Positions 10,758 through 64,000 of a stretch of 64,000 bases of DNA are shown piece by piece. The DNA is taken from the NCBI GenBank assembly GCA_034401135.1, contig JAWZSP010000008.1, forward strand, positions 3,100,001 through 3,164,000. Reading direction: 5' to 3'. Origin of the DNA: Volutella citrinella (taxonomy: Eukaryota; Ascomycota; Sordariomycetes; Hypocreales; Nectriaceae). A program made the position numbers and the translations under genes. The notes beneath the pieces were generated by a model. It did not search any database. It was not told the origin of the DNA and saw only the letters and a program-made list of their open reading frames with translations. The number at the start of each line of letters is the position of its first letter. Positions within the stretch are counted from its first letter, which is position 1.

Positions 10758-13700
10758 ATGAAGTTGGTGACAGCTTTCCTGCTCTCGGGCGCGGTCCTTC
10801 CCGCCGTCTTCGCAGGAAGCGTCCTTCAACAACGGACACCTGGGTATCAGGCTCCGTGCGGAGACCGCCCTATTCTGCCGGGTGAGACCTGCTGTAAAAC
10901 GCCGAATGGAAAGAAGAATATTTGCGGTTATGGTATGCTTGGCACCTCTTCCGTGGTGATAGTTTGATATCTTTCTGACTACTTTCTCCTAGGTACCACC
11001 TGTTGTAAGTAAAACACATGCATGATACTCCATGGCTATGTCTATGAGATCTTCCAATCTGAGTCCAACCCCCTCTATGGTTGACCACGACTTTTACCTA
11101 GGCCGAAACTGACGGTCTTCAGGTTTCTACGGTTGCTGCAATTATGGCCACGTCTGCCGCAAGGACGGCGCATGTGTTCCCAGGTACGGCGGCGGTCCAC
11201 CATCAGACCCTACTACCATTGATGAAGGGCCGTCTAGCACCACCAGGGGTGGCTCGGGTCCGAGTACAATCGAAGGTGGTAGCCCCCCTACTACCACCAA
11301 AGAGTCGGGAAACCCAGTCCCTACCACGGATGAGAATGGCAACCCTATCTCAACCACTCGCCAAGGAGGCAATCCACCAGGCACCACACAGGAGGGCGGC
11401 AGCCCCAACCCTACCACTGACGAGAACGGGAACCCTGTGCCTACTACTGACGTAAACGGAAACCCTGTCTCAACGACAAACCAAGGGGGCAGCCCGCCTC
11501 CAAGCTCGACCCGTGAAGGCGGCTCTGCTCCCACAACCGATGAAGGTGGAAACCCCATCCCGACCACGGATGAGAACGGCAATCCCGTGTCAACAACGGT
11601 CCAAGGAAACCCGCCACCCAGCACTACTGGTCAGGGAGGCCCGCCTGGTACCACCGACGAGGGAGGCAACCCAGTTCCTACCACTGACGAGAATGGTAAC
11701 CCAGTTTCGACAACCATCGGTGGTGGCCCGCCCCCAGGCTCAACTGTCGAAGGAGGAAACCCAGTCCCTACCACAGACGAGAACGGGAACCCCATCTCCA
11801 CAACGAGGGAAGGGGGAAGCCCTCCTCCTAGCACGACGGATCAAAACGGAAACCCGGTTCCTACCACTGACCAGAACGGAAACCCAGTCCCAACCACTAG
11901 CCAAGGTGGCAGCCCCCCTCCTAATACTACGAATGAAGGAGGTAACCCGGTCCCCACCACTGATGAGAATGGTAACCCTGTTTCAACCACCGGTCAGGGA
12001 GGTAGCCCTCCCCCAAACACAACGGATGAGAATGGTAACCCCATCTCGACGACAAACCAGGGAGGCACTCCTCCTCAAAGCACCACTGAAGGGAATGGAA
12101 ACCCTGTGCCGACGACGGATGAGAACGGGAACCCAATCTCAACCACTGGCGGCACCCCTCCCCCTAATACCACTGACGGCAACGGAAATCCTGTCCCTAC
12201 TACTGATGAGAACGGCAACCCCGTCTCAACTACGGCCGGTGCACCTCCCCCCAACACCACCGATGGTAGTGGAAACCCTGTCCCAACTACCGATGAGAAC
12301 GGCAACCCCATCTCAACGACAGGTGGCGCACCTCCACCCAACACCACTGACGGTAATGGAAACCCCGTCCCTACTACTGACGAGAACGGCAACCCAGTCT
12401 CGACTACTGGTGGCACTCCCCCCCCCAACACTACCGATGGCAATGGAAACCCTATTCCTACCACTGACGGGAACGGCAACCCCATCTCAACTACGGCCGG
12501 TGCTCCCCCTGGTACCACCGACGGTAATGGAAACCCTGTCCCTACCACTGATGGGAACGGGAACCCAGTCTCAACCACTGGTGGCGCCCCTCCCCCTAAC
12601 ACCACCGATGGTAACGGGAACCCGATCCCGACTACTGATGAGAATGGCAACCCGGTTCCAACAACACAGCCCGGAAATCCCGGTCCCTCTACCACTAACG
12701 GGGGTGGCAACCCTCCTGTCTCAACTGACGAGAACGGCAACCCGATTCCCACGACAATTCCGGGAGGCAACCCGCCCCCGAGCACCACTGAGGGGCCCTT
12801 CATCACTCATACCGACTTCCCCAAGGTCACTATTGTGCCTGTAAACACCGAAGTTCCCGATCCTACCTCGGATGACGACGATGACCCTGTCATTCCTTGT
12901 CTGGCTTGGTTCTTCTTTGTGAGTTGCAAAAGTCCAATCCTGCTGAAATCTTGTTAACTCGTTGGCAGATTTGCATCCGATGGGATGGCGGGCCCATCAT
13001 TGGTGGTTGGAAGATCACTCTTCCCCCTGGTGTATACCTCACGTAAGAGATCTTCCATTGTGTGCTTGTAACCTGACTGACAGAACTATACAGCGGACCA
13101 CCTGGCAGCATCGAGTGGCCGCCCGGTATCCGGATCGAAGGCAGCCTTCCGCCATGGCCCAAGTTCACGTAAGTTTGCCTGCGCTGCTGACTTTTCAACC
13201 CTAAGACTGCCAAGGCTAACAAATCGCTTGACAGCGTCGGACCGGATCACAAGCCTACCTATGAAGATAAACCCACCTCTTGTGAAACTAAGTCGGCCAC
13301 TATGCACATCACGACTACCTCGTATGGCGTCTCCGTTTCTGGCACTGTGACTTCCACGACGACGAGCCGAGTGCTTGAGACCAGCAACGTCATCCTCGGC
13401 TGTGACGTGACGGATGCGGGTGCCACCAGAACGGTGACGGGCGCTACTACTGCTACTGACGTGCCGGTTTACACTCCCGAAGTTGAATGGATCGGCCTCC
13501 TGCCAACGCTGGAATTTGACACCGCAGGTGCTGCGGCTGCGACGAGATATAGCGAGATCGAATCATTCTGGTCGTGTAAGTCTAGCAGGCTCATTTGCAT
13601 CTCGTCCCTTTATTCCATTGCCACCAGAAGTCGGGCCCCAGTCCTTTTCAAAGTCATTTACTGACCCTTGGTTTGCAATAGCGGCGGATGCTGAAGTGGA

Positions 13701-43769: not shown

Positions 43770-45697
43770 ATGTCAGCCCACAGGACAAAGCGAGCATGCG
43801 AGCAGTGCAGACGCCGCAAGGTTAAGGTGGAATGATACCCCCGTCTTTCCTCCTCCATCATCACCATGTTGAGCTTGCTTGGCTGACCACCGGCCAGTGT
43901 GAAGCATCAGTTCCCGTGTGCACCAACTGCAGGATCGCTGGGCTGACCTGCCAGTACACAATTCCTAGGCGACGAGGCCCGCGATCATCGAGAGCGCCTA
44001 AGCTCACAGAGTCGACGAGCCCAGAGAGCATCAACTTCGCCGAGCCAGGCCACCATGGAACCTTGGAAGTGGTCGAAAATGCCGCCGTGGTAACACCCAG
44101 CTCAATAAGCACTACAGCCTCAAGTAGCCAACCATTATGGCATTCCGCGCCCTCTCCCTGCGCTGCGTGGGCATCGAGCCCTGTCGTGCCCATCATCCGC
44201 GCGTCGCAGACTCCCTGTGGCATCTGGAGAGACTTGTTGGCGAACCTTGGGACCGTGATGCATGACAGACTGCCGATAGACATAATCAACGACTGCATCG
44301 CCCTCAGCGGACTGTATTTCTTCTCGGCCTGTCCGCTCTATCACGAACAGTCCCTCCGTGCGGTGGCCGTCCGCCTCGTTTCCAGAGAGCCGGAAGACTC
44401 AGATGCGAATATCGGGGCTGCTTTAGGCTTTCTGAGCCCTACGGAGCATGAACGCGTCACAGCATTGCGGGAGTTTACCCTCCTCACTGCGCTGTGTGCG
44501 TCCATGTGCTTCCTCATCCCCGACCATCTCTTTCCTCGAGGATCCGTTGCCGGCCCCTCATTTCTCGGGGCATCACGAAGTATGCTGCGACTTTTCGAAG
44601 ATTATGATGTCGAACACCCGGATTACTTGTCCATATCCTTTCGACTCTGCCTGTCCACGGCCGTCCAGAACTCGACAGGGAAGTCCGGGCTGGCGTGGCA
44701 TATCCTCGGACATGCTGGGCTTCTCGCCCAGAAGCTACGGCTTCATGACGAGGCGTCGCTGGCCAAATGCAATCCCGTCGAGGCGCAGCTCCTGCGGTGC
44801 ATGTTCTGGCACCTATACACCTGCGACAGGACTGCGTTGTTCCTTAAGTGCCGCCCGGTGGCTATTCACGAGTTCCTCTTTGACTCGCCCCTGAACTTGG
44901 AGTTCGATTGCGATCCCCACGTTCCACTGCTAGACATGGATCTGTCTCACAACGATGCAGCACAGGAGCATCGCATGATGGAAGGCTTTCGGATCAACTG
45001 CCACATCTGGAGGTTATCGGCCGACCTGTCTAGAGACATGGAGGCCTATGCGAGCCGCCGCGCAGTGGAGGAGACAGACAACGCATCAGGCGCTGACAAG
45101 GAGCTCGCTCGGCTGGCCGAGCTATACTTTGAGTTCATCGGCCTCCCCAGTACTCTACCGCCATGGCTGAAATCGCCAGACGACGTGGCAAGGGGATTAG
45201 GGGAGCGAGGTGACTATCTCAGGGCAGGCTTCTGGACGCATCGAACCTCGTTCCTTGTCACATTCCACTGCGTCAAGCTTCTGATACTGCGCACCGCCAT
45301 CCGTTGCAAGATCACCGAGATTCTGGGACTGAGCAACCATGCTCTAACGCTGTCCATGAAACTGGTCGAGTTTGGACAGGACTTTGTCGACGTGCTAGAG
45401 AGCGTGCCTTTTGATACGCTCAAGCTCGGTGCTGAGCCTTGCGTAAGTGTATCCATCAAATCTCAAGTGGTATAGCCTGTTGGCTTGGGCTAATACGCGA
45501 GGGAAAAGGTCGAAAAGGTGAGGCAAGTTGGAGGCTGTCTCCTGGAGACCATCCATAATGCCGAGAGTGAAGTCGTCAAGGGGCAGGCCAAGTCATGCGC
45601 AACCCGCCTCCTGGACATCCTCGCGCGGCTGGACTCGAAGGCATCGGACGAGCTTGAGAATTCGACACAATTCTTGCATACGCTCGGTGGTGATTGA
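43770..45697 (+). CDS. Zn2Cys6 transcription factor with Fungal_trans domain
   Basis: Exons 43770..43826, 43898..45442 and about 45518..45697 give about 593 residues. The first intron (GTGGAA..GGCCAG) interrupts the zinc cluster before the third Cys. The joined cluster is C10, C13, C20, C27, C30 and C37 with RRRKVK between C13 and C20. The regulatory domain (PF04082-like) has AWHILGHAGLLAQKLRLHDE and LRCMFWHLYTCDRTALFLKCRPVAIHE, the classic motif region of fungal-specific factors. The last exon (VRQVGGCLLETIHNAESEVV...LHTLGGD) is clearly in the same style, but its acceptor is uncertain. AG at 45516..45517 is used, while AG at 45501..45502 would add five codons. It may control the GH3 gene upstream or the four-domain gene downstream, as inferred from position only. 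Confidence 0.82.
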
Positions 45698-46084: not shown

Positions 46085-49000
46085 CTACTTGCCGCTGTAG
46101 ACCAAGAGGCTGTGAACATGCACACCGCCGAAGCCACCGCTTCGCAGTGTTTCCCGCCCAAGGTGAGCCGGGAATTCGGCAATCACCATGACACTGACAT
46201 CCTCGAGCTTGGCCCCTGAATCAGCGAGCAGCTGTAGAATCGCACAGAGAGTCTCCCCGGAAGCGAGTACATCCTCCACAACCACGATGGGCTTACCACT
46301 TGCAATGGCATCTCGACCAATTTCTATCCTCATATCCTGATCCTCATCCGCCACTAGTGCCGAAACATGGGAAGTTGGCTTGTCCAGCGCAATGGTTGGG
46401 GGAGGAAGCTTACTGGCTACTCTGATCAATGCCAGAGGTACGTTGATTTGTGCTGCCAACGCCGGGGCAAACAGAAACCCACCAGCCTCACAACAGACAA
46501 TTGCGCAAACCTTGGCCCAGTCACCTGTAAACTGACTCTGAAGCAGAGACGTGCACAGCGCTAGCCCTCCCGGGTGCTCTGCGATGCCCAGTATATGACG
46601 AAAATCCACGTCTGGGGTTGGAAATCGTGGAATCACCCGCACCATATCAGCGATCGCGCCGAGACCCTCGTCAAAGAGCTTCATTAGGCGTTGGTCGGCA
46701 AACTGAACTGCAGCTTCGCTTCCTTGGGTGGTGTTGTCAAAAATGAAGGTTGGGCAATGTCCGAGATTTGTTTGGGCTGGTTCATTGGCCATGTCTATGA
46801 CTTCTGCCATCCGTCGACGGGCTTGCCGCACACCTTCGCTGGCTTGGACGTGGACTTCGATGAGCCGACTCTGGGGCACGAGATGTGACATGGTTGCTAC
46901 CGGAGCTTCCTCTGCCATGCCGGTAATCAGCAGAACATCCGTGTCCCCAGCGTTGGTAACCACATTGACGAAATGTTCTTGTGGTAGTTGAGGCCGTTGC
47001 TTCACTTGGTGCTGGAAGAACTCTGTCAATGCCGCACGATGCTCTTCTTTGTAGACACGGTCCGCTATTAGGCGGTTATACTCAGCGCCTGATTTCTTTG
47101 CATACTCTCGCTTCGTCTCATCGCTGATGCTGACAACTCGTGCCCTAATGTATTTGTCGAAGAAGACAGAAGTCCAGGTGGTAGCAACATAGTCCTTGCC
47201 CGCCCCATGCGCTCCAGTTACAAGGATGATAAGATGGGGCTTACTGGAGGCTTGAGGAAGTGGACAAGCATAAGCAAGCATGTTGTTGGGGTCCAGCTCG
47301 CGTTTGAGACGGGCCAATCGTGCCAAGTTTGGCCCAAAGGCATAAGCAGCCAATGCCTGGTCTCGAGGGTCGGGCCCGAGATCTGCACCATAGACACCGG
47401 TAGAGAAAGGAAGTAGCTGCATGGCTAACTCATAGACCCAGAGGGTAACGGATTTGGAGATTGCGGTATCGTCTTCGGCACGGGGCCAGACTCCAGTCAA
47501 GACACAGGCAAACTCCCAGTCTCGACAGCCAAACGCTGTGTCCGTAGGCTTCACTTCACCGACTGCTCCGCCGCCATGCAGGATATGGACGTAGCACAAG
47601 GGCGACGGCCGATTCGCTATCGCCTTGAACAAGATATCAGCCACCTCTGTTGCCGCAACTTGCTTCAAGAACACGCAGCGCTTAAACGCTGATGTCTTGC
47701 CGCCTCCGTGCCCGCCGTGCATTTTGGACATGTACATATCCGTATCGAACAGCTCGACAATATCGGCGACCTGGGATGTGCCATCGGCTCCCAGAACCTC
47801 CCTGGCTGCGACGGAAGTAGATGCAGGAAGCGATGTCAGATCAGACTTGCCGCTTTCATACGCTTCGTACATGGTCACCCCAAGATTCATTTGGTCGGCG
47901 TCCCAGTAAAGATAGGCGTCAGCGGAACGGTTGGGTGGAAGTATTCTGGCAGCATGGTTGTCGAATTCGATGAGTGTTTGTGTCGCTTCTGCCTGATCTT
48001 TGAGTGGGAAAATCCAGTTCCGAACGACAAATTTCAGAGCAGGGAAGGTTTTGAACGTGACGCTGATGACGATGCCCATGTTGGTTCCCGCGCCCTTCAA
48101 CGCCCACAGCCAGTCCTCTTCGTTATCCGGGCGTAGAGCATCTGCGGGAAGACATTGTTTGGGTACATGACCAACAGCCATCACTTCTCCAGACGCTACA
48201 GAGACCACCACGGCCCCAATGATGGCATCACAGGCAAGGCCATGCAGTCTGGCCAAGTGGCCGATGCCACCCTGAAGCCAGAGCCCTGCGCCGACGCTGG
48301 GGCGGGACCCCAAAGGGACGACTAGGCCCATGGCAGCCGCGTTGCTGATGATGTCTCCCGTGCTACAGCCTGCCTGGGCGGTGACGACGTGTTCACACCC
48401 CAGGTCTTCGTGGGCTGGTAGCACCTCAACTTGATTGAGGCCTCGCATGTCCATGGCCAGAACAGACGGCTGAAGACAATGTCCGCTGTGCCCACCACCA
48501 ACCATAGTGAGAGTGAAGTTGTGCTTTGAAGCCCATCGGACACAGAGTTGAACGTCTTTTATTGAAGTGGGCTTAAAAACCCTAGCAGGGAGATGAAGGC
48601 GGGCTTGCGGGCTTTTCACCACTATTTGATCGCTCAACAACGGCAACATGGTGCAATCCTTGGCCGCATGAGAGTTGAAGGCTGCGATGACGTCGGGTGC
48701 GCTGAATACGAGATGGCCAGCGTCTGTCTCGTCTCGACGTCCAAGGCGGCCAAAGATTCGGCGCCATTCCAACTGAACCGTGCCGTCGGATCCATGGTGC
48801 GGTGAGCATCCGGCAATGAAGGAAGCAAGTGAATCGATTTCGACGTCATTGTCTGCAATACGAACAACGCCTTGAGGAAACAAGGCAATCTTCTGGCTGA
48901 TCAGACCATCCAAGTCCAGGGAATCGCGGCGATGGCAAACGATGACGAGCCCATCGTCCGGAGCTTCAACCAGCATTTCGAGTGCTTGTTCAATGTATGC

Positions 49001-49576
49001 TCGCTTCGGGTTCATGCCGTACATACTGTGGCAGAATAGGACCACGTCGAACTTTTGCTGGCAATTGCCCTCGGTGCTTGAAGCTCCCTCGTCGCCGGGG
49101 AGACGGAACCGCACCTGGTGGATTTCGGCTGAGCCTGCGAGTTGGGGAAAGGGGGTCGCGGTAGACGTTGCGTCAAACGTCTTCTCCAACCGGGCGGCAA
49201 ACAGGCTACTGGGCTCAAATGCCACATACCTCCGGATCTTGTGCCGGATATGATCGGGCAAGTAGCTCAGCACCGTCTTGGGACCGGGTCCAATCTCCAG
49301 AACAGAGATGCCGCTCCGAGATCTGGAGAGAGGAGAGAGGAGCTGGGACAGCTGGGGAATAATGAATTGTTCATACGTCTGCCAGCCCGGGCCCTGCAGC
49401 AACAAGTCAAAACCAGCGCTGTACTCGCTGGAAGACAATGATCTGGTGGCGGAGACATCATCTATCGGGATGGCCTTTCTCAAAGCGCCCGTGACGGCGT
49501 CGAGGGTAGCCATGTGCGCGAAGGGATCGTAGTTGTGACAAGAGCTTCGGGGTGAAGAAAGAGAGCCGCGGTTCAT
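46085..49576 (-). CDS. Four-domain fusion: methyltransferase, BBE-type FAD oxidase, PMK-like P-loop, phosphoribosyltransferase
   Basis: One uninterrupted exon of 1163 residues from ATG 49576. Residues 1-310: class I SAM methyltransferase-like, with VLEIGPGPKT at 92-101 (glycine loop) and FDVVLFCHSMYGM at 176-188. Residues 328-772: FAD-linked oxidase of the berberine-bridge type, with MVGGGHSGHCLQ at 358-369 (the His position that can hold FAD), SRPSVGAGLWLQGGIG at 424-439, and the C-terminal BBE motif RLARLKRELDPNNML at 753-767. The second covalent Cys of BBE enzymes appears absent. Residues 780-975: P-loop domain with VTGAHGAGKDYVA (786-798) and EYAKKSGAEYNRLIADRVYK, matching animal-type phosphomevalonate kinase (PF04275). 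Residues 985-1163: type I phosphoribosyltransferase with PRPP loop IVVVEDVLASGETL (1097-1110). Together they suggest an enzyme that modifies a nucleoside- or phosphate-bearing metabolite, but the pathway is unknown. It diverges from a Zn2Cys6 regulator. Confidence 0.85.
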   Translation of the reverse strand: MNRGSLSSPRSSCHNYDPFAHMATLDAVTGALRKAIPIDDVSATRSLSSSEYSAGFDLLLQGPGWQTYEQFIIPQLSQLLSPLSRSRSGISVLEIGPGPKTVLSYLPDHIRHKIRRYVAFEPSSLFAARLEKTFDATSTATPFPQLAGSAEIHQVRFRLPGDEGASSTEGNCQQKFDVVLFCHSMYGMNPKRAYIEQALEMLVEAPDDGLVIVCHRRDSLDLDGLISQKIALFPQGVVRIADNDVEIDSLASFIAGCSPHHGSDGTVQLEWRRIFGRLGRRDETDAGHLVFSAPDVIAAFNSHAAKDCTMLPLLSDQIVVKSPQARLHLPARVFKPTSIKDVQLCVRWASKHNFTLTMVGGGHSGHCLQPSVLAMDMRGLNQVEVLPAHEDLGCEHVVTAQAGCSTGDIISNAAAMGLVVPLGSRPSVGAGLWLQGGIGHLARLHGLACDAIIGAVVVSVASGEVMAVGHVPKQCLPADALRPDNEEDWLWALKGAGTNMGIVISVTFKTFPALKFVVRNWIFPLKDQAEATQTLIEFDNHAARILPPNRSADAYLYWDADQMNLGVTMYEAYESGKSDLTSLPASTSVAAREVLGADGTSQVADIVELFDTDMYMSKMHGGHGGGKTSAFKRCVFLKQVAATEVADILFKAIANRPSPLCYVHILHGGGAVGEVKPTDTAFGCRDWEFACVLTGVWPRAEDDTAISKSVTLWVYELAMQLLPFSTGVYGADLGPDPRDQALAAYAFGPNLARLARLKRELDPNNMLAYACPLPQASSKPHLIILVTGAHGAGKDYVATTWTSVFFDKYIRARVVSISDETKREYAKKSGAEYNRLIADRVYKEEHRAALTEFFQHQVKQRPQLPQEHFVNVVTNAGDTDVLLITGMAEEAPVATMSHLVPQSRLIEVHVQASEGVRQARRRMAEVIDMANEPAQTNLGHCPTFIFDNTTQGSEAAVQFADQRLMKLFDEGLGAIADMVRVIPRFPTPDVDFRHILGIAEHPGGLALCTSLLQSQFTGDWAKVCAIVCCEAGGFLFAPALAAQINVPLALIRVASKLPPPTIALDKPTSHVSALVADEDQDMRIEIGRDAIASGKPIVVVEDVLASGETLCAILQLLADSGAKLEDVSVMVIAEFPAHLGRETLRSGGFGGVHVHSLLVYSGK

Positions 49577-50257: not shown

Positions 50258-52152
50258 ATGATGGCGACGGAGCATCGCCCAGCGCCGCCACCCACGGCCC
50301 CGGCCCCAAGCCTGCGCCGGCGTCGACCGATTCTCCGGGTCAGGACCGGCTGCTTCACGTGTCGCACGCGCAAGAAGAAGTGCGACGAGGTCAAGCCCAT
50401 TTGTTCCGGGTGCAGACGAAATAGTCTAGCCTGCCAATGGCCGGAGGATTCATCTGGCGGCGAGAAGCGTCAAGAGCGCCGGGGTTCGCGCTGCGATAGC
50501 ATTACCACCAAGGTTCCGGGCACGCCTGGGTCCACGACGGAGTCGCAGCATCGATCAAACAGGCAAGGGATGTCGGGATCGTCACAAGGGACGGCAGACG
50601 CCCGCATGGACCTAGACCAGCAGGATTCACCCAGGCGTCCAAGCACGACGCCTTCAACGGCACCAAGTTCAGCCTCTGACAACAACCATTCCCTCTCCAG
50701 CTCCCCCAGCTCTACAAGCCCTCCAATCACGGGTCCATTCGAAGCCTTGCATGCAGGACCAGATGTTCCGTCCCTGTACAGCGACATTATGGACGCCGAC
50801 GTCGTCGAACTGGAGAGTATCCCACCCGCCGACGACTATCCAGACCTCGCTCTCATGCTCCGTCCTCGCGCACCCAGCGACGGTAACGCTCACTTGAACC
50901 TATTCCCGTCTGTCCCCCGCACACTCTCGATAATTCCAGGTCTCGGCAGCCAGTCCTACGACCTCATGGGCCACTACCTCAATCGCACAGCACACTGCAT
51001 GGGCAACGGGTCGACAGTGGCCAACCCCTTCATTGTGCAGCTGGTCCCGCTGTCCTTTGTAAACGAGGTCGTCCTCGACTTGCTGCTCTCTCAGAGCGCT
51101 GCCAACCGCGCAAACTACCTGCAGCTCGAAGCCGCCGGCTCGGCCAAGGCACTGGCGCAGAAGCATTACACCAAGTCGATACGTCTCTTCCGAAACCTCA
51201 TCAACGAGTATCTAGCCGGGAGCGAGTCCAGTCCCTTGTGGATAGCCATTGGGGGTCTCATCATGTGCTTTACAGAGGTACTGTCCCTCTCGAAAATCTG
51301 TGTGAACTGCTTAGCTGACCATGCCAGACTGCCAAGGGTGATACCAATGGTGTGGTGTTCGACCACCTGCATGCCGTCGGACCCCTGTTGGTCGACCTCA
51401 TCACCAAACACAAGGATGTAATTCGAGAAGATCTCAAAAACTTTATCGTGGAATACTACATTTACACAGCGGTAACCAGCATGATCTCCATCGATCCGTC
51501 CGTCGGCACCGTGCCACTGATGCGGTCTGAGATACGTGGCGAGGCGCAAGCCCTCGTCACCTCGGGATACATGGGGCAATTGTGCGGCTGCTGGATGCAG
51601 CTGCTGCTCCTGATTCCGCAAATTTTCGGATTTGGCAGTCGACGAATGTCTGGCAATGCCGATCCGCCATTCCCCAGTGCCGACGACTTTATGCAATTCT
51701 CTCAGCTGCAGACCGAGATTCTCAGCTACATGCCCTCTCCGTTTGCCAACTTTGAAGTCACGCTGGTCGGCTACATCTTCCAGCAGACAGTCTACATCTA
51801 TCTGCTCTCAGTCTTCGGAGTGGGCGGGCAGAGCGGCGGGCTGCATCAGACGAGCATCCAAGAAGCCATTGACAAAACGCACATGTACCTCGACCAGCTG
51901 CCCGCGACTGCGCAGATAAACACCAGTCTTTGCTGGTCATTGGCCGTGATCGGATGCTGCACTACAGACGAGTCTCAGCGGGAAAAGCTGCAGCAGCGGT
52001 TGGATACAATGTTTGTGACACTCGGGCTGGGCAACGTGCGGTTGACATCGGCTCTGCTGTCGCGCATTTGGGCAAAGCCTTTGGAGGAGCAGAACCCGTG
52101 GGCGCTCTGCCAGGTAATGCAGGAATATGATCTATGGACGTCATTTGCTTAG
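50258..52152 (+). CDS. Zn2Cys6 transcription factor with Ser/Thr-rich linker
   Basis: Exons 50258..51277 and 51328..52152 (GTACTG..TGCCAG, in phase) give 614 residues. The first two codons are both ATG, and either may start. The zinc cluster is complete: C32, C35, C42, C49, C52 and C59, with RTRKKK between C35 and C42. The N-terminal RRRR stretch may serve nuclear import. Residues 65-150 are Ser/Thr/Pro-rich and likely disordered. The C-terminal regulatory domain contains FVNEVVLDLLLSQSAANRA and HYTKSIRLFRNLI, as in fungal_trans_2 (PF11951) factors. It is divergent from the four-domain fusion gene, so it is the best candidate for a dedicated regulator of that gene. Confidence 0.86.
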
Positions 52153-52861: not shown

Positions 52862-53871
52862 CTACTGGCCCTGGTTCTGAGGGGGCTGAGTCGCCGGACC
52901 TTCAGCCGTAACGTAGGCCTTGGTCAAGCCACCATCAACGACAAAGTCGTGCGCGTTGACGAAGCTGCTCTCGTCGCTGGCCAGGAACAGCGCCGCCTGA
53001 GCCTGCTCGATGGCCTCACCAAATCGGCCAGAGGGGAAGTGGACCTCGCGACGAGAACGCTTGGCCTTGTCATCTCCGAGGAAGGCTTGCAGCATGGGGG
53101 TGCTGTGCATGTTAGCTTCTGATGCCTTGACACAGGGGTGGTAGAGTGAGCTCGACATACTTGAGGGGGGCCGGGCATAGTGAGTTGAAGCGGAATCCTA
53201 GAACAGCGTCAGTGAAGCCCGATGAATCAACGAATCAGCCAGTTCTTACCCTCCCGAGCGTGCACAATGGCCATCTCACGGGTATAAGCCAGGACAGCGC
53301 CCTTGCTGGCCGTGTAGGCAACCTGTGGCGTCGCCGCACCCACGATGGCCACCATGCTAGCCGTGTTGATGATGCTGCCCTTTGTCTTGCCGTGCTTCCG
53401 CAGCGAACGCACAGCATGCTTGGAGCCGTACCACACGCCCTTGACGTTGATGTTCATGGTCAGGTCCCAGATGGCGTCGGAGCACTCCTCCGAGTCGCCG
53501 TCCTTGGGGTGCATGATGCCGGCGTTGTTGAACATGACGTCGACGCCGCCCCAAGCGTCCAGGTGGGCCACGGCGGCCTCGACCTGGTCTTCCTTGGACA
53601 CGTCGACGGCCTTGGTCTCGATGCGGCCCTCGGGGCTGGGGACCACAGCCTTGACCTTGGCGAGGGCCTTGGCGAGGGCCGCCTCGTTGACGTCGGTCAT
53701 GAGCACGGATGCACCCTGTTGAGCGAACAGGATGGTTGATTCGAGGCCAACGCCACTGGAGAGCAGTCAGTACTACCCCGCGGTACGATGTTGCGATGTT
53801 GCAGTTTGGTGTAGAACCTACCCAGCGGCGCCGGTGATGATGGCGTTCTTTCCAGAGAGTCGTCCAACCAT
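52862..53871 (-). CDS. Short-chain dehydrogenase/reductase (SDR)
   Basis: Exons 53871..53822, 53755..53250, 53197..53161 and 53102..52862, GT-AG and in phase, give 277 residues, the normal size. The cofactor loop TGAAGGVG is rebuilt by the first splice. NNAGIM (helix 4 region), INTASMV (catalytic Ser) and AYTASKG (catalytic Tyr and Lys) form the classical SDR site. [14 protein letters not shown], made by splicing the 37-nt exon 3, is the usual segment after the active site, and VVDGG near the end is typical. The enzyme should be a cytosolic NAD(P)-dependent alcohol or ketone oxidoreductase. The substrate is unknown. Divergent from an aldehyde dehydrogenase across 700 bases, so the two may act in sequence (alcohol to aldehyde to acid). 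Confidence 0.88.
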
Positions 53872-54569
53872 TGTGATGCTTGTGTGGAGAATTATTAGCT
53901 AGAAGAAGACTTCTAAACGCTCCAGTCGAGTGAGTGTGATCCTGCTCGTGAGGTTCTGCTGCTATCGTCTTTCGACATTTGAATCTATATACCCCATGCC
54001 GCATCCACCATCTCCAATCTTGTCGCTTCCTGATCGGGCCCATGGCCGCCAACAGCCGGGCGGACATCTGTGACAGGGTACCCACATGCAGCGCGGTCCG
54101 TGATTCCATTGGTACTCGCGGCGCAACTAGCGAGATGCCGTCCCGCGCTACTGATCCCGACACTGGTCCGCGCGGGATGTCGTGGGGCGGTCCCCGAAGC
54201 GCATGCGTCGCTTCCATCTCAAGTGTCTTGTGACAATCAGCGCGACGCGCCCTGATTACAGCCGCGATACGGCGGACCGGCTTTCGGCGGACTTTAGACC
54301 GACAGAAGCTCCTGGGTACCAATCACACTCGTTTACGCTGGTGGCTACTGCATGTCCCCGCGCCGCACCAAGAGCCGGACCCGGCAGTGTATCATGGGAT
54401 CACGCACATCCGCACCCATGGACACGCTTCCGTCTGCCAATGCCGGGTTTCAAGTACCGGCTGACTTCAAATATCGACCGCATGGTCTTGTTGAGCCGCA
54501 TCAGATCGGTCCATCTCGCATCAACAGCTCCCATCCACCTCATTCCCACAAATCGTCAGGATAATCAAG
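53872..54569. promoter_or_regulatory. Shared divergent promoter of SDR and aldehyde dehydrogenase
   Basis: The only stretch between the two divergent dehydrogenase genes, so it holds both promoters. No gene or defined operator seen. Confidence 0.5.
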
Positions 54570-56131
54570 ATGGCTACCACGATCCGCACCATCTCGCCCT
54601 CCACCAACCAGGTCGTCTGCGAACGGCCCGAAACAACTCTCAATGAGGCCCGCGACATTTCTGCCCGCTCAGCGGTGGCCTTCCAGGCTTTCCGCAAGGT
54701 CCCCTTTGCCGAGCGACGGGCCATCGTGGAGAAGGCCTTGAAGGCCATCCAGGACCGCAAGATGGAGCTCGGCCGTGAGCTCTCTGAGCAGATGGGCCGA
54801 CCCATTGCTTACAGCCACAAGGAGATTGAGACGATGCAGAAGCGCGCTGACTACCTCCTCGATACTGCTGAGGAGGCCCTGGCCACCCTGCCCGGCCGTC
54901 CCGAGAACGGCTTCCGACGAGAGATCAAGAAGATTCCCGTCGGTCCGACACTGATTGTATTTGCTTGGAATGTCAGAACATCTTTCAGATTTCAACGGCG
55001 AAATACGTGTAGCTAACACGATCGTTTAGTTCCCATACCTCATCATCGTCAACGCCCTCATCCCCGCCCTCCTCGCCGGCAACTCGGTCATCCTCAAGCC
55101 CTCCCCCCAGACGCCCCTTGTCGGCGAACGCATCGCCGAGATCTTCAACGCGGCCGGCCTCCCTACGGACGTTGTGCAGGTCATCCAGTCCGGCAACCCC
55201 GCCGCCCTCAAGGAGATTGTCAAGCTCCCCGAGCTGGGCCTTGTCAGCTTCACCGGCTCTACCGCCGGCGGGCTTGCAATCCGCGAGGCGCTGGCCGACC
55301 GCACCATCCCCGTGAACCTCGAGTTGGGCGGCAACGATCCCGCCTACGTGCGGGCCGATGCCGATCTCAAATACGTCGCCGCGCAGTTGGTGGATGGTGC
55401 CGTCTTCAACGCCGGACAGTCCTGCTGTGCCGTTGAGCGCATCTACGTGCACGCCGATGTGCACGACGCCTTTGTCAAGGAGCTGCAGGAGGAACTCAAG
55501 ACGTATGTTGTACTCTGCCGCTGGCTGATCTGCATTGACTGACAAACTCCCCACAGATACAAGCTTGGCGATCCTCTCGACGAATCTACAATGGTTGGCC
55601 CTGTCATCTCCCGCGCTGCGCAGCAGGCCATCAACGCTCAGGTCCACGATGCCCTGGCCAAGGGCGCCGTAGACGCTACTCCCCGCAATGAGACGTTCCT
55701 CGCTACCCCTCGAGCAGGCAACTATGTAGCACCAGTTCTTCTCACCAACGTGACACACGATATGGAAGTCATGCGGGAGGAGACATTTGGCCCCGTAATT
55801 CCCGTCGCAAAGGTAGCCAGCGACGATGAGGCTATTCGCCTCATGAACGACACCGAGTACGGCCTCACTGCTAGCGTCTGGACCAAAGACATCACGCAGG
55901 GCGAGGAGCTGATTGAGCAGCTGGAGGCTGGCACCGTCTTTGTCAACCGATGCGACTACCCGAACCCGGTAAGTCGCCTGCTCGTATGTCCTGTTTCCTC
56001 AACTAACATGTGCCCAGGACCTCGCTTGGACCGGCTGGAAGAAGTCGGGTCTGGGGTGCACGCTTGGACCGCGCGGGTTTGATGCCTTTTTCAAGCTCAA
56101 GAGCTATCACGTCAAGGAGGTCCACGGCTAG
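54570..56131 (+). CDS. NAD(P)-dependent aldehyde dehydrogenase
   Basis: Exons 54570..54971, 55030..55502, 55557..55968 and 56018..56131, GT-AG and in phase, give 466 residues. Motifs in order: the cofactor site VFAWNFPYLIIVNALIPALLAG-type region; SVILKPSPQTP (the Lys that contacts the cofactor); GSTAGG; the general base Glu232 in LELGGNDP; and the nucleophile Cys266 in FNAGQSCCAVER. Near the end come FGPVIPV, YGLTASVW and TVFVNRCDYPNP. The length is slightly short of the usual 480-500, mostly at the N-terminus. It oxidises an aldehyde to the acid, and the group resembles succinate-semialdehyde or general aldehyde dehydrogenases. The substrate is unproven. Convergent with the D-serine-dehydratase-like gene. 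Confidence 0.9.
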
Positions 56132-56735
56132 GCAGTTATGTCAAGAAAGTAATTGAAAACAAGTATTACGGGGACTCTGTACCGGAATCCCAAAGAATTA
56201 CTCTGCCTGGTTGTCCACATGGGCGCAAGCTTTAGTCAATTTGTGGCTCCTCGTACCTAACTCTAACCCCCAATTTTGAGGGTAAAGCGCACTATATTGA
56301 CTAATTTCATAAAGCTGGTGCGTTTTGCCGCATTTCGCTGCCGAGAATCCGTATTAAGCCGTCCTCGTCACCAGCAGGCGCGGAGTTGGCTTCATACTCG
56401 CGCTTAGGGTAGCACTCCCAGCCCAATTCACAGCTTCAGGCAGCATGCCTTTCTCACTAGGACCGACTATCTAAAACCTCTTCCTGCATATTCAAAACAC
56501 TAGGAACTTTGTCCTGGTCGTTCCGGCGCATATTGAAGCGCAGAGTGTATTTTGCAATCTCGAGGGCGACGTTGCTGGTACAAAAGGAGAGGAATCAACT
56601 CCCAGCGTTTCGTAACCAACCTTCTTCGTAGCTCCCCCTTGCTCGTACTAGTAGCCTCTCTAGCAAAATCAGCCGTAGGAAAATTGAATAATCGTTTAAG
56701 TTGAAGAACTTTTATTTTTTTATACTTGAGCACTC
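56132..56735. other. Convergent intergenic region
   Basis: About 600 bases between convergent genes, without a recognised gene. Confidence 0.5.
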
Positions 56736-58014
56736 TTACCAACCCTTCCATGGCACCCAAGTGTCCACCACGGTATCATTCTCATCTACTATATAGTAAG
56801 CGAAGAAGGCTGCAGCAGTAATACAAGCATGGTTGCAGAAAAGCTGGACCTTCTGGCCAACCTTGAAATCACCAGTCGCCTTGAGCTGGGCATTCTGCGT
56901 GCTCAAAATGCCGTGCTCCTGGGACAGACGAACGACAGCCCAGTCGGGCTGGCCGACAACCCGTCCGAATCCTGGGTAGGCGGCGCTCGCCTCGCGGGAC
57001 AGTGCAATGACGCCGGCGTTGAGTAGCACCTCGTTTCGCTCTTCGTACACGCTGCAGACCTCGGCGGCCACTCGGACAGCCTGGTCTTGTTCTGTGACCA
57101 CAGCGGTAGAGACTTGCTGGAGGTCGTTGGCGGGGAAGTTTCCTGCGTGTAGCTCGAGCTTGACGTTCGAAGGCAGAGTCGCCTTGAGCTTGCTGACGAT
57201 GTGCGCTGTAGGCGTGGATCCGACCGAGACCCGAATCTGGCGCGTCGACGGGAGGAGCTTGGAGGCCTGCACTACGCCCTCGACTTCATCGTGCAGCGTC
57301 TTCTCGGCCTCTTCTGGTGTTCTTCCGGCATATGAGTGGCCTGCATGGCAGTAGAAGCCAATCAAATTCACGGCGGATGACTTCTCGGCACGCTCGACGA
57401 GGGCGCGTAGAGAGGGTGACGCAAGCTCAACGCCAGCACGGTGGGAGCCTACGTCGATCTTGATGAAGGCGTCCCATGTCAACGAAGAATCATGGGCCTC
57501 GAGAGCAGCAATCTGCTGTTCATTGTCCACCATGAGCTGGATACGGATCGACTTGCGCAGCTCAACGAGCGCAGACAGAGCGCCAGGGTAGATGGGGAGT
57601 CCATACAGACACTGGACGGTGTGTGAGTCAAGGTGTCAATGTATCTGAGGATGCGGGGTAGGATTCACCTCGTCGAGAATGCCCTCTTTTACTAGAGGTA
57701 GGGCACCACGGATCTCTGCAAGGGTCGAGGCTACGATGGAGCGGTACCTGCCCCCGCCAAGCATCAGCCGAGTCACCTCGATGGTCTGGTCATTGGTCAG
57801 TTCAGTTCTGGTGCGCGGGAGCGGGGTCTAATTGAACACACACCTTGAGAGTCTTGACGTGGGGTCGGAAGGCAAGGCCGAGGCGGTCGACATCCTGGTG
57901 CAGCCTCGTGACATTGTTCTGGACAATTGGTAGGCTGATGACGAGTGAGGGAGTGGGTAGCTCCGACACCTTCTTGCCAATGTAGGCCTTGTGGTTTTCT
58001 AGGGCGTGATCCAT
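56736..58014 (-). CDS. D-serine dehydratase-like / D-threonine aldolase-family PLP enzyme
   Basis: Exons 58014..57844, 57785..57669 and 57611..56736, GT-AG and in phase, give 387 residues. The N-terminal alanine-racemase-type barrel begins LPTPSLVISLPIVQNNV. The PLP lysine motif reads RPHVKTLK, where most relatives have KTHK. HAGHSY and SVGSTPTAH follow, then LHAGNFPANDLQ. The C-terminal domain (D-ser_dehydrat, PF14031) keeps the metal-binding His-x-Cys in CNHACITAAA. Relatives (yeast Dsd1) convert D-serine to pyruvate and ammonia with PLP and zinc, and other members are D-threonine aldolases. The His-to-Leu change beside the PLP lysine may alter substrate choice. ATG 58014 (MDHALENHKAYIG) is used. 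Confidence 0.88.
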
Positions 58015-61008: not shown

Positions 61009-62683
61009 ATGCGGCCGGACAGCATCGAAAAACCAGACCCTGCTGGCGAGAGAGACGCAGGTCTTGGTCGATCCGAGTCTGTCAATGGTAAGCCTCTTCC
61101 TGCTGTTGCCTTATACCAGCAAACCCACTGACAAACAGCCGGGCCTCAAGTCGGCCACGTCCCAGAACTCAGGAAGAACTTCTCCCTCTTTTCTGTCCTC
61201 GGCATCGGCTTCTCCCTCGCAAACTCGTGGTTTGGCATCTCGACGGCCCTCGTCACAGGCATCAACTCGGGCGGACCCGTGCAGCTCGTGTACGGACTCA
61301 TACTCATCACAATCGTCTGTCTGGCCATTGCCGTGTCCTTGTCTGAGCTGGCCTCGGCCATGCCGGATGCGGGTGGGCAGTATTTCTGGACCAGCCAGCT
61401 CGCGGGAAAGCGATACGGCCGCTTCATGTCATATCTCACCGGGTGGATCGCCTGGGCTGGATCACTCTTTACGTGTGCCAGCATCGCGCTCGGGGTCGGG
61501 AACCTGGTCATGGGGTGCATCCAAATTGCACATCCTTCGCTGTACGTTTACTTCTTACACCGCGCAACATGTTGGTTAACGCATCTCCAGGGTCATCAAA
61601 CCGTGGATGAGCTTCGTCAGCTACCAGATCATCAACCTCTTCTGCGCACTCTTCAATTTCTCAAGCCACGCCCTCCCAACCGTCACCTTCTTCACCTTAT
61701 GGACGTCTATAATATCCTTTCTCGTCATTATCCTCACTGTCCCTTCCAAGGCAGAGACCCACCAGTCAGCCAAGTTCGTCTTCTCCGAGTTTGTCAATAA
61801 CACTGGCTGGCCCAATGATGGCATCGCATACATTGTCGGCCTCATCAACTGCAACTGGGCCTTTAACGGGCTCGATGGCGCGACTCACATGGCCGAGGAG
61901 GTTCTGAACCCAGAGAGGACTGTTCCAATTGCTATTCTGGGTACAGTCGCAATCGGATTCGTGACGGCGTGGCTGTTTAGCATTGCAATGATGTTCAGCA
62001 TCAAGGACTTTGACGCCGTCAGCACTACCCCGACTGGAGTTCCCATCCTGGAGCTATTTAACCAAGCGCTCGGAAACAAGGCGGGAGCCATTGTTCTATG
62101 CTCGCTGATCGTGCTGACAGGCTGCGGATGTCTCATAGCCTCGCACACCTGGCAGGCCCGTTTGTGTTGGTCCTTTGCTCGGGATAGCGGCTTGCCTGGA
62201 TCCAGCTATCTGAGCCGAGTGCACCCCAAACTCCGCGTGCCTATTTACGCACACGTTGTCAGCTGCACAATTGTGGCCATTTTGGGATGTCTATACCTCG
62301 CTTCATACAGCGCCTTCAACAGCATGGTGACTGCCTGTGTCGTTTTGCTTTATGCTTCCTACAGCATTCCTGTTGTTTGCCTGCTCATCAAGGGACGCTC
62401 CACGCTGCGTCATGGCCCCTTCTGGCTGGGGAAGCTTGGAATGGTATGCAACTACGTGCTTCTTGCCTGGTTGGCTTTTTGTCTAGTTGTGAGTTGCCTC
62501 TTTTACGCGGGTACTTCATTTGCTAATTCATAACAGATGTATTCCTTCCCTCCCGTCTACCCAGTCAAGGGCGACAACATGAACTACGTGTCAGTCGTTT
62601 ACGTTATCACTTTTGCGGTATTGACGTCTTGGTGGTTTATTCGAGCAAAGACGGACTTCCGACCACTGGGTGTTGTCATTTGA
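61009..62683 (+). CDS. APC-family amino-acid/choline/GABA permease
   Basis: Exons 61009..61087, 61139..61541, 61591..62488 and 62537..62683, GT-AG and in phase, give 508 residues, the usual length. A hydrophilic N-terminus leads into RKNFSLFSVLGIGFSLANSW, the signature start of fungal choline, GABA and related permeases (Hnm1/Uga4 group). MPDAGGQYFWTSQLA and YLTGWIAWAG are conserved loops. GLDGATHMAEEVLNPERTVP is the diagnostic AAPP-family stretch, and SRVHPKLRVPIYA is the typical later loop. About twelve helices are expected. It imports an amino acid, GABA, choline or polyamine at the plasma membrane. Substrate cannot be settled from sequence. It lies convergent with a glutamine-synthetase-family gene. 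Confidence 0.9.
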
Positions 62684-63184
62684 ACCCGTTTTGGATGGGT
62701 TTTATTCATGTATTATCAAGCAGGTCAATGGATCATTCTGTATTAACTTAGTGATGTCTACATACTGCCCGCAGGGAGGGGCAACAGAATCGTAGCAACA
62801 ACATTTACTTTCTTGTTTATACAAATTAAGAACTTGTTTAAATCTAATTCTACTGATAGTTGTATATTTGCTGGTTGTTTGCTAATGTTAGAAGGGATAT
62901 AAATGATACGACCGAGGGGCCTCGAGGAGCCAAGCAGCGCAGTATTGAATAGCGGTTGTTGTTATCAGAACTTGAGATCAGAAGGATATGAGCATCTTGT
63001 GACTTTCTAATTTGGACACAATTTGTAATTAGGCTAGTAGGTCGCGGTATGTAATGAGTTCTTTGTTTACTATAAACTGGCATGGCACTTCGCGCCATGT
63101 GTACAATGGCGTATATCTCGAGCAATCTTCCATTGATCCCTTACTCATTGCTAAGTGTCACGGCATTATTATACCTACGGAAGC
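62684..63184. other. Convergent intergenic region
   Basis: About 500 AT-rich bases holding two 3' regions. No gene seen. Confidence 0.5.
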
Positions 63185-64000
63185 CTATACAGTCTCGATG
63201 TATCGGTTAACCTCCCTATAAGCAACAGGGTCAGTATTTACCTCTTCACCACACAGTCCGATTCGGGGAACTTACCAATCCGTCACCGCCTCCCTCCACT
63301 CCTTCAGTTCATGGCGTCTCGTCAAGGCGTAAAACTCGACAAACTCGTCTCCAAAAAGCTGTCGGGAAACGCTCCCTTTGGCACTGAACCGCGCCAGTGC
63401 AGTTTCGAGGCTGTTTGGCAACAACTCAGCCGGCGTATCTTTGGGTCGGTGGGACTCTGGGGGCACCGGGATTTCCATCTTGTTCTTGATTCCACGCAGG
63501 CCGGCCTGGAATATGGCATTCAATGTGTAGTGGGGGTGCAAGTCCGCGCCCGGGGTCCGGATCTCGAAGCGCGTGGCTCCTGGCTTGCAACTCGGCGGAC
63601 CAACGATTCGAATCGATGATAGGCGGTCCTCGAACCCCCAGCTCACGGAAACTGGCGCCCAGTAGTTCTCTATGAGGCGCTTGTAAGAGTTGACGTTGGG
63701 TGCGAGCATGGGCATGATGCTCGGAAGCGCATCAAGCAGACCGGCCAAGAAATAGCGGCCAGTGTCGGAGATGTTGGCGAGGTCGGGCCAGGGCGCATTC
63801 TCGTCGGGCGAGTCGCGCACAAACATGTTTTTTCCATCGAGATCTGTCAGAGACACATGGACGTGGCCCGAGTTACCGGGAAGCCCGTAAATGGGCTTGG
63901 CCATGAAGCAGGGAGTGATTTCATGCTCAACGCCAAGCGACTTGCAGAGAAGCCTGTGTGGGATGTCAGTCAACTAAGTACGTTAGAGCAGAGGCGAGCA
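63185..64000 (-). CDS. Glutamine synthetase-family ligase, 5' part outside window
   Basis: The last two exons are 63953..63276 and 63215..63185, joined across a GTAAGT..TATAG intron, giving the end WREAVTDWEVNRYIETV. Upstream of 63953 a CCACACAG acceptor, with GACTGAC before it, shows that an intron runs to or past the window edge. The visible part has the GS catalytic domain (PF00120): a GLPGNSGHVHVSL stretch with metal-site His, NSYKRLIENYWAPVSVSWG, and RFEIRTPGADLHPHYTLNAIF. Such fungal proteins are relatives of GS-I and of gamma-glutamyl-amine ligases (PuuA-like, FluG C-terminal). They join ammonia or an amine to glutamate using ATP. The neighbouring amine/amino-acid permease fits a catabolic or polyamine role, which is inference. 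Confidence 0.85.

Follow-up and report, generated by a model that had tools for sequence, protein, structure and literature searches.

One plant alkaloid route introduces an N-methyl group and afterwards oxidises it; cytokinin oxidase removes an N-alkyl group from an adenine-like base. The bacterial purine repressor PurR senses phosphoribosyl pyrophosphate (PRPP). In adenine phosphoribosyltransferase (APRT), an arginine of the pyrophosphate loop and a Glu-Tyr pair of the catalytic loop presumably have roles in the working of the enzyme. The analysis of a 64,000 nt stretch of the Volutella citrinella genome (contig JAWZSP010000008.1, positions 3,100,001 to 3,164,000; this whole stretch is referred to below as the window) revealed a gene that can be compared with all of these systems. 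Sequence comparisons, together with a predicted fold, established that its product keeps four folds in one chain: an S-adenosylmethionine (SAM) methyltransferase resembling histamine N-methyltransferase (HNMT), a flavin adenine dinucleotide (FAD) oxidase resembling EncM and the berberine bridge enzyme (BBE), a kinase resembling phosphomevalonate kinase (PMK), and an APRT-derived phosphoribosyltransferase (PRTase) with an altered active site. The preliminary description of this DNA had called the combination unfamiliar. This fits with our finding no paper on this four-domain architecture among those listed by one open-access library, as judged by title and the start of the abstract (subscription papers lay outside the search).

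The open reading frame (ORF) for this protein has 1163 codons plus a stop (46085..49576). Reading of the frame and comparison with relatives placed it on the minus strand, so that the fusion in a single frame described earlier stood, while the strand had to be corrected; the opposite strand was not open over 46085-49576. Met22 (49511..49513, minus strand) is probably the true start of the protein, since alignment showed it to be the start site in 25 of 26 relatives, the remaining one starting two codons earlier. A whole-protein search of the V. citrinella genome (45.1 Mb, 26 contigs) detected no second full copy; six other matches spanned only the FAD or the PRTase part. The GC content at third codon positions of the gene (0.588) was lower than that of the nine other window ORFs compared (0.637-0.764), which could reflect a foreign origin or weak codon selection.

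A protein search returned 1057 matches, the best 120 of which are referred to here as the listed relatives (all residue counts out of 120 refer to these). They were 1118-1257 residues long, each contained PF04275, PF00156 and PF01565, and the architecture, which was to be sought in other fungal genomes, was found in all 120. Together with the 1163 stop-free codons, this upheld the earlier view that four enzyme types share one frame by something other than chance read-through. In the protein search the listed relatives were 53-56% identical to the window protein over 94-99% of the query. In the alignment the window protein was an outlier, with 55-58% identity to the listed relatives compared with 65-99% (median 77%) among those relatives. 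It agreed with them at 405 of the 460 columns showing at least 95% conservation, its most striking departure being Ala888 (46913..46915, minus strand), an Arg in 120/120. The cofactor residues Gly96, Gly98, Lys794 and Asp1102 were present in 120/120, and His363 in 119/120. The named hosts included Orbilia, Trichoglossum, Geoglossum, Venustampulla, Lasallia, Xylographa, Glonium, Daldinia, Xylaria, Trichoderma, Aspergillus flavus and Penicillium roqueforti. Taxonomy look-up verified six classes of Pezizomycotina among the hosts (it supplied the class labels of 14 species in all). In nine pairwise comparisons, identity varied from domain to domain by 3-13 points within a pair, so that none of the four has been freed from selection. 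The fixed architecture of the listed relatives indicates that the four domains very probably act together, and we are nearly certain that this is a conserved, intact, multifunctional enzyme of filamentous ascomycetes with four domains in a single polypeptide.

The methyltransferase domain (residues 43-302; 48671..49450, minus strand) had a predicted HNMT-like fold. The class I SAM methyltransferase fold and a glycine-rich SAM motif were both present (Glu94, Gly96 and Gly98 in 120/120), in agreement with the SAM methyltransferase-like domain first reported, while the Pfam model Methyltransf_23 reached only 25.2 bits with the whole protein and 26.4 bits with the isolated piece, under its cut-off of 27. 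The FAD oxidase domain (residues 302-778; 47243..48673, minus strand) showed both a FAD_binding_4 domain (PF01565) and an EncM/BBE-like fold over its whole length; the description of this domain as BBE-type thus held for these features and failed for the BBE domain PF08031, which scored 18.7 bits against a cut-off of 20.6. His363, within the sequence GGGHS (48488..48490, minus strand), aligned with the flavin-linking histidine of EncM and 6-hydroxy-D-nicotine oxidase, and is a putative flavin-linking residue of an EncM/BBE-like oxidase. The matches of a structure search with the whole-protein model were filled by the oxidase domain, and the kinase and PRTase assignments thus come from sequence. 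The EncM/BBE-fold matches included sorbicillin, tirandamycin and oligosaccharide oxidases.

The kinase domain (residues 783-957; 46706..47230, minus strand) resembles animal PMK. It matched PF04275 (P-mevalo_kinase) at residues 786-900 with E 8e-21 and 74.5 bits, well over the gathering cut-off of 33.8, confirming the PMK-like P-loop domain proposed before. The Walker A P-loop GAHGAGKDY (residues 788-796; 47189..47215, minus strand) was recognized by motif and conservation, its Gly788, Gly793, Lys794 and Asp795 being present in 120/120 listed relatives.

The PRTase domain (residues 971-1162; 46091..46666, minus strand) matched PF00156 with E 7e-18, as expected for the type I PRTase seen earlier, and its profile matched APRT structures in the PDB (E 1.3e-25). 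NCBIfam APRT models gave E 1.1e-22 and weaker, all under their own cut-offs (77.2 bits versus 185.85 for the equivalog TIGR01090). The PRPP-binding motif (residues 1097-1110, IVVVEDVLASGETL; 46247..46288, minus strand) followed the pattern hhhhDDhhA[ST]GxT, with Asp1102, Gly1107 and Thr1109 in 120/120 listed relatives; its first acidic residue was Glu1101 in the window copy and Asp in 119/120. Alignment revealed an altered pyrophosphate loop, EAGGF (residues 1030-1034; 46475..46489, minus strand), where APRT has [S/A]RGF: Gly1032 was Gly in the window copy and in 120/120 listed relatives, while this position was Arg in 80/80 bacterial APRTs and in the genome's own APRT. At the places aligned with the catalytic-loop Glu-Tyr of APRT (both residues present in 79/80 bacterial APRTs, with one gapped), the listed relatives had Ser in 120/120 followed by His, Tyr or Asn (106, 10 and 4, respectively), although the loop is longer in the fused domain than in APRT and the alignment there is less sure. 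A bacterial source for the kinase-PRTase part was not found: the best 80 of 475 confirmed loci from one genome-contig scan showed no coverage of the kinase P-loop, 79 of them matching only from query residue 153 (the PRTase part) and one from residue 108. A canonical APRT is present on a separate contig of the V. citrinella genome, as two pieces each scoring alone under the model cut-off. Ordinary adenine salvage was set aside, given this canonical APRT and the absence from the fused domain of the pyrophosphate-loop Arg and the loop Glu. Of the readings offered earlier for the kinase and PRTase, an ordinary salvage step is thus set aside and a nucleoside-like product is a possible interpretation.

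The four parts might all handle one small nitrogen-containing ring. The PRTase-derived part would attach this ring to PRPP-derived phosphoribose, using a base or a chemistry different from that of adenine salvage, and the kinase would put on a further phosphate. The methyltransferase would N-methylate the ring compound, and the flavin oxidase would oxidise a carbon adjacent to nitrogen, which may be that of the added methyl group. The outcome would be a modified metabolite of nucleotide-like type, as yet uncharacterised. Such a nucleotide-type pathway is proposed tentatively, as it may well turn out otherwise, and the full statement (a conserved four-domain enzyme plus a nucleotide-like pathway) is to be taken with the same caution. 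Several observations weigh against it. The kinase of the window copy may be weakened, because Ala replaces the conserved Arg888. The APRT-derived domain may not transfer ribose phosphate at all, because neither the Arg of the pyrophosphate loop nor the loop Glu is present in the family. The domain in which the window copy has diverged furthest is the methyltransferase (49% identity to Trichoglossum, versus 58-62% for the other domains); this domain was only 16% identical to HNMT despite the like fold, and its sequence profile found nothing significant, and no HNMT, among the PDB sequences. EncM and BBE-fold oxidases act on polyketides and sugars too.

The main rival explanation, which we consider unlikely, is that the APRT-derived domain acts, like PurR, as a PRPP sensor that governs the methyltransferase, oxidase and kinase parts, with ribose-phosphate transfer no longer taking place. 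The retention of the PRPP motif alongside the family-wide loss of the pyrophosphate-loop Arg and loop Glu would suit such gating, and the PRTase profile also recovered PurR (E 1.1e-9). This match was, however, far poorer than that to APRT (E 1.3e-25), and Arg1052 and Lys1056, among other positions in the domain, were still invariant across the listed relatives. It is improbable that the protein serves instead to degrade or repair modified purines, with the oxidase stripping an N-alkyl group from an adenine-like base and the PRTase and kinase returning the base to the nucleotide pool. An APRT-derived PRTase beside a kinase of nucleotide-kinase fold and a flavin oxidase of amine-oxidising type is what such a role would call for, and it would suit a gene present in fungi of many habits; but the methyltransferase would have no clear place, and the fused PRTase lacks the APRT hallmarks even though a normal APRT is present.

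A function in mevalonate or terpenoid metabolism, with the kinase converting isoprenoid-like alcohol phosphates to diphosphates and a terpenoid being tailored by the oxidase and methyltransferase, appears very improbable. PF04275 is named after the animal PMK, and the kinase profile found solved PMKs in the PDB (E 2.8e-9). The animal PMK equivalog TIGR01223, however, matched residues 783-957 with only E 1.5e-7 and 31.5 bits, against a cut-off of 188.15; the P-loop GAHGAGKD is unlike the animal GKRKSGKD, and the APRT-like part would have no place. The genome also contains matches to exons of an ERG8-type PMK (three pieces on one contig, each alone under the model cut-off), making the fused kinase unlikely to be the mevalonate enzyme. 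PF04275 itself matched the genome only in the four-domain gene (the search was made exon by exon, so absence elsewhere is not proven). A mevalonate-pathway role for the kinase was rated low in view of the ERG8-type exons and this single PF04275 match. According to an excerpt of PMC3202784, the PMK of A. flavus is described with GHMP domains; A. flavus carries the four-domain fusion too (P0083).

That the gene is an artefact, whether as a pseudogene, through chance read-through or as several genes sharing one frame, is scarcely credible: split or shorter versions are recorded in other fungi and the window copy differs at 55 of the 460 highly conserved positions, but the frame runs for 1163 codons with no internal stop, all 120 listed relatives are full-length, and the other 405 positions are retained. 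The shorter forms were inspected among the best 120 of 170 matches in one search and all 86 in another. Some records, e.g. from Elaphomyces, Endocarpon, Monosporascus ibericus and Venturia, contained the kinase and PRTase only, and most of these started at a Met just ahead of the kinase. In the tree such records were scattered among full-length relatives, the exception being a divergent group, including Venturia, Polyplosphaeria and Cercospora, placed next to the window copy. Seven records (P0123, P0129, P0163, P0166, P0182, P0187 and P0199) consisted either of the kinase-PRTase part alone or of the conserved N-terminal start fused straight to a later part. Disrupted genes and mistaken gene models may account for such shorter forms, or they may be genuine (two-domain proteins in the case of kinase and PRTase alone).

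The history of the gene was followed in 50 named relatives by pairwise identity. A tree and approximately unbiased (AU) tests were made with 41 of these plus the window copy (42 rows; P0024, P0027, P0031, P0035, P0039, P0057, P0075, P0092 and P0093 were left out). Several rows came from metagenome-derived assemblies. Median identity stood at 75.8% for the 222 pairs within classes and at 74.8% for the 1003 pairs between classes. Trichoglossum (Geoglossomycetes) and Venustampulla (Leotiomycetes), which belong to different classes, were 89.7% identical, while congeners were less alike (74% for two Trichoderma species and 73% for two Penicillium species). The nearest relative came from another class for 23 of the 50 rows, or 20 of 47 once Orbilia, the sole row of its class, and two rows with uncertain class assignment were removed. 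The AU tests, which were run after the tree was seen on classes known beforehand as groups, rejected a single clade for Leotiomycetes (p 1.7e-8) and Lecanoromycetes (p 0.0011). The conflict between the gene tree, taken by itself, and the fungal classes therefore suggests horizontal spread, and horizontal transfer would be its simplest explanation. Against this, Sordariomycetes were not rejected as a single clade (AU p 0.061), Eurotiomycetes and Geoglossomycetes each formed their own group, and duplication with loss offers an alternative. DUF3435, sought as a sign of Starship-type mobility, was unmatched here and likewise in 14/14 controls, and is thus uninformative. In its broadest form, the proposal would have one polypeptide carry a short pathway (N-methylation, flavin-dependent oxidation, phosphorylation, and altered APRT-derived ribosylation or PRPP gating) leading to a nucleotide-like metabolite or signal across filamentous ascomycetes, the gene moving between classes as a self-contained unit; we regard this as doubtful.

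The window holds 87 ORFs of at least 130 aa, 10 of which were submitted to Pfam and the others just looked over. None of the 10 was a polyketide synthase, non-ribosomal peptide synthetase or terpene enzyme, giving no indication of a biosynthetic cluster and no support to the idea that oxidation and methylation tailor a natural product. Pfam identified genes for transcription factors of the Zn2Cys6 type on either side of the four-domain gene (43832-45475 and 50258-52152, both on the plus strand), genes resembling those for short-chain dehydrogenase, aldehyde dehydrogenase and D-serine dehydratase (53227-57533), and an amino acid permease together with a glutamine synthetase-like gene (61607-63973). 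The genes at 53227-57533 and 61607-63973 look like functions for the use of amines or amino acids. A long Thr/Pro/Gly-rich repeat protein, with units such as TTDENGNPVSTT, was encoded at 11437-12957 on the plus strand in a region open on both strands; it is perhaps a cell-surface protein.

At about 1160 residues, with 65-99% identity among the listed relatives and intact cofactor motifs, the four-domain protein must be useful to its hosts. Its value lies in being widespread yet uncharacterised, in uniting four enzyme types, one of them an altered APRT, and in having a tangled history. It offers a test case in which one gene and one protein are predicted to use four cofactors (SAM, FAD, ATP and PRPP), and the tangled tree makes it a candidate for studying the transfer of self-contained enzyme genes among fungi. 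Databases file this widespread protein under the name of a single domain: in other ascomycetes it goes by names such as 'phosphoribosyl transferase domain protein', 'adenine phosphoribosyltransferase' or 'CAZyme family AA7', with 53-56% identity to the outlying window copy. As regards described systems, the oxidase shares a fold with EncM, 6-hydroxy-D-nicotine oxidase and BBE (VAO superfamily) at about 22% identity, its BBE Pfam domain lying below the cut-off, and the combination of a BBE-type oxidase with an N-methyltransferase fold brings to mind the plant alkaloid route of N-methylation followed by oxidation. The kinase shares with animal-type PMK the Walker Lys and Asp and a YKE motif as in the human enzyme (3ch4), and differs from it in the P-loop and, in the window copy, in having Ala at the place of Arg888. 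With APRT, the PRTase domain shares fold and sequence over residues 971-1162, its best profile matches in both NCBIfam and the PDB, and the PRPP motif; it differs in its pyrophosphate loop (Gly in place of Arg), in its catalytic loop (longer, with Ser in place of Glu) and in being fused to three other domains. The altered domain raises the question of whether an APRT fold lacking the usual arginine of the pyrophosphate loop can still work as an enzyme or as a sensor.
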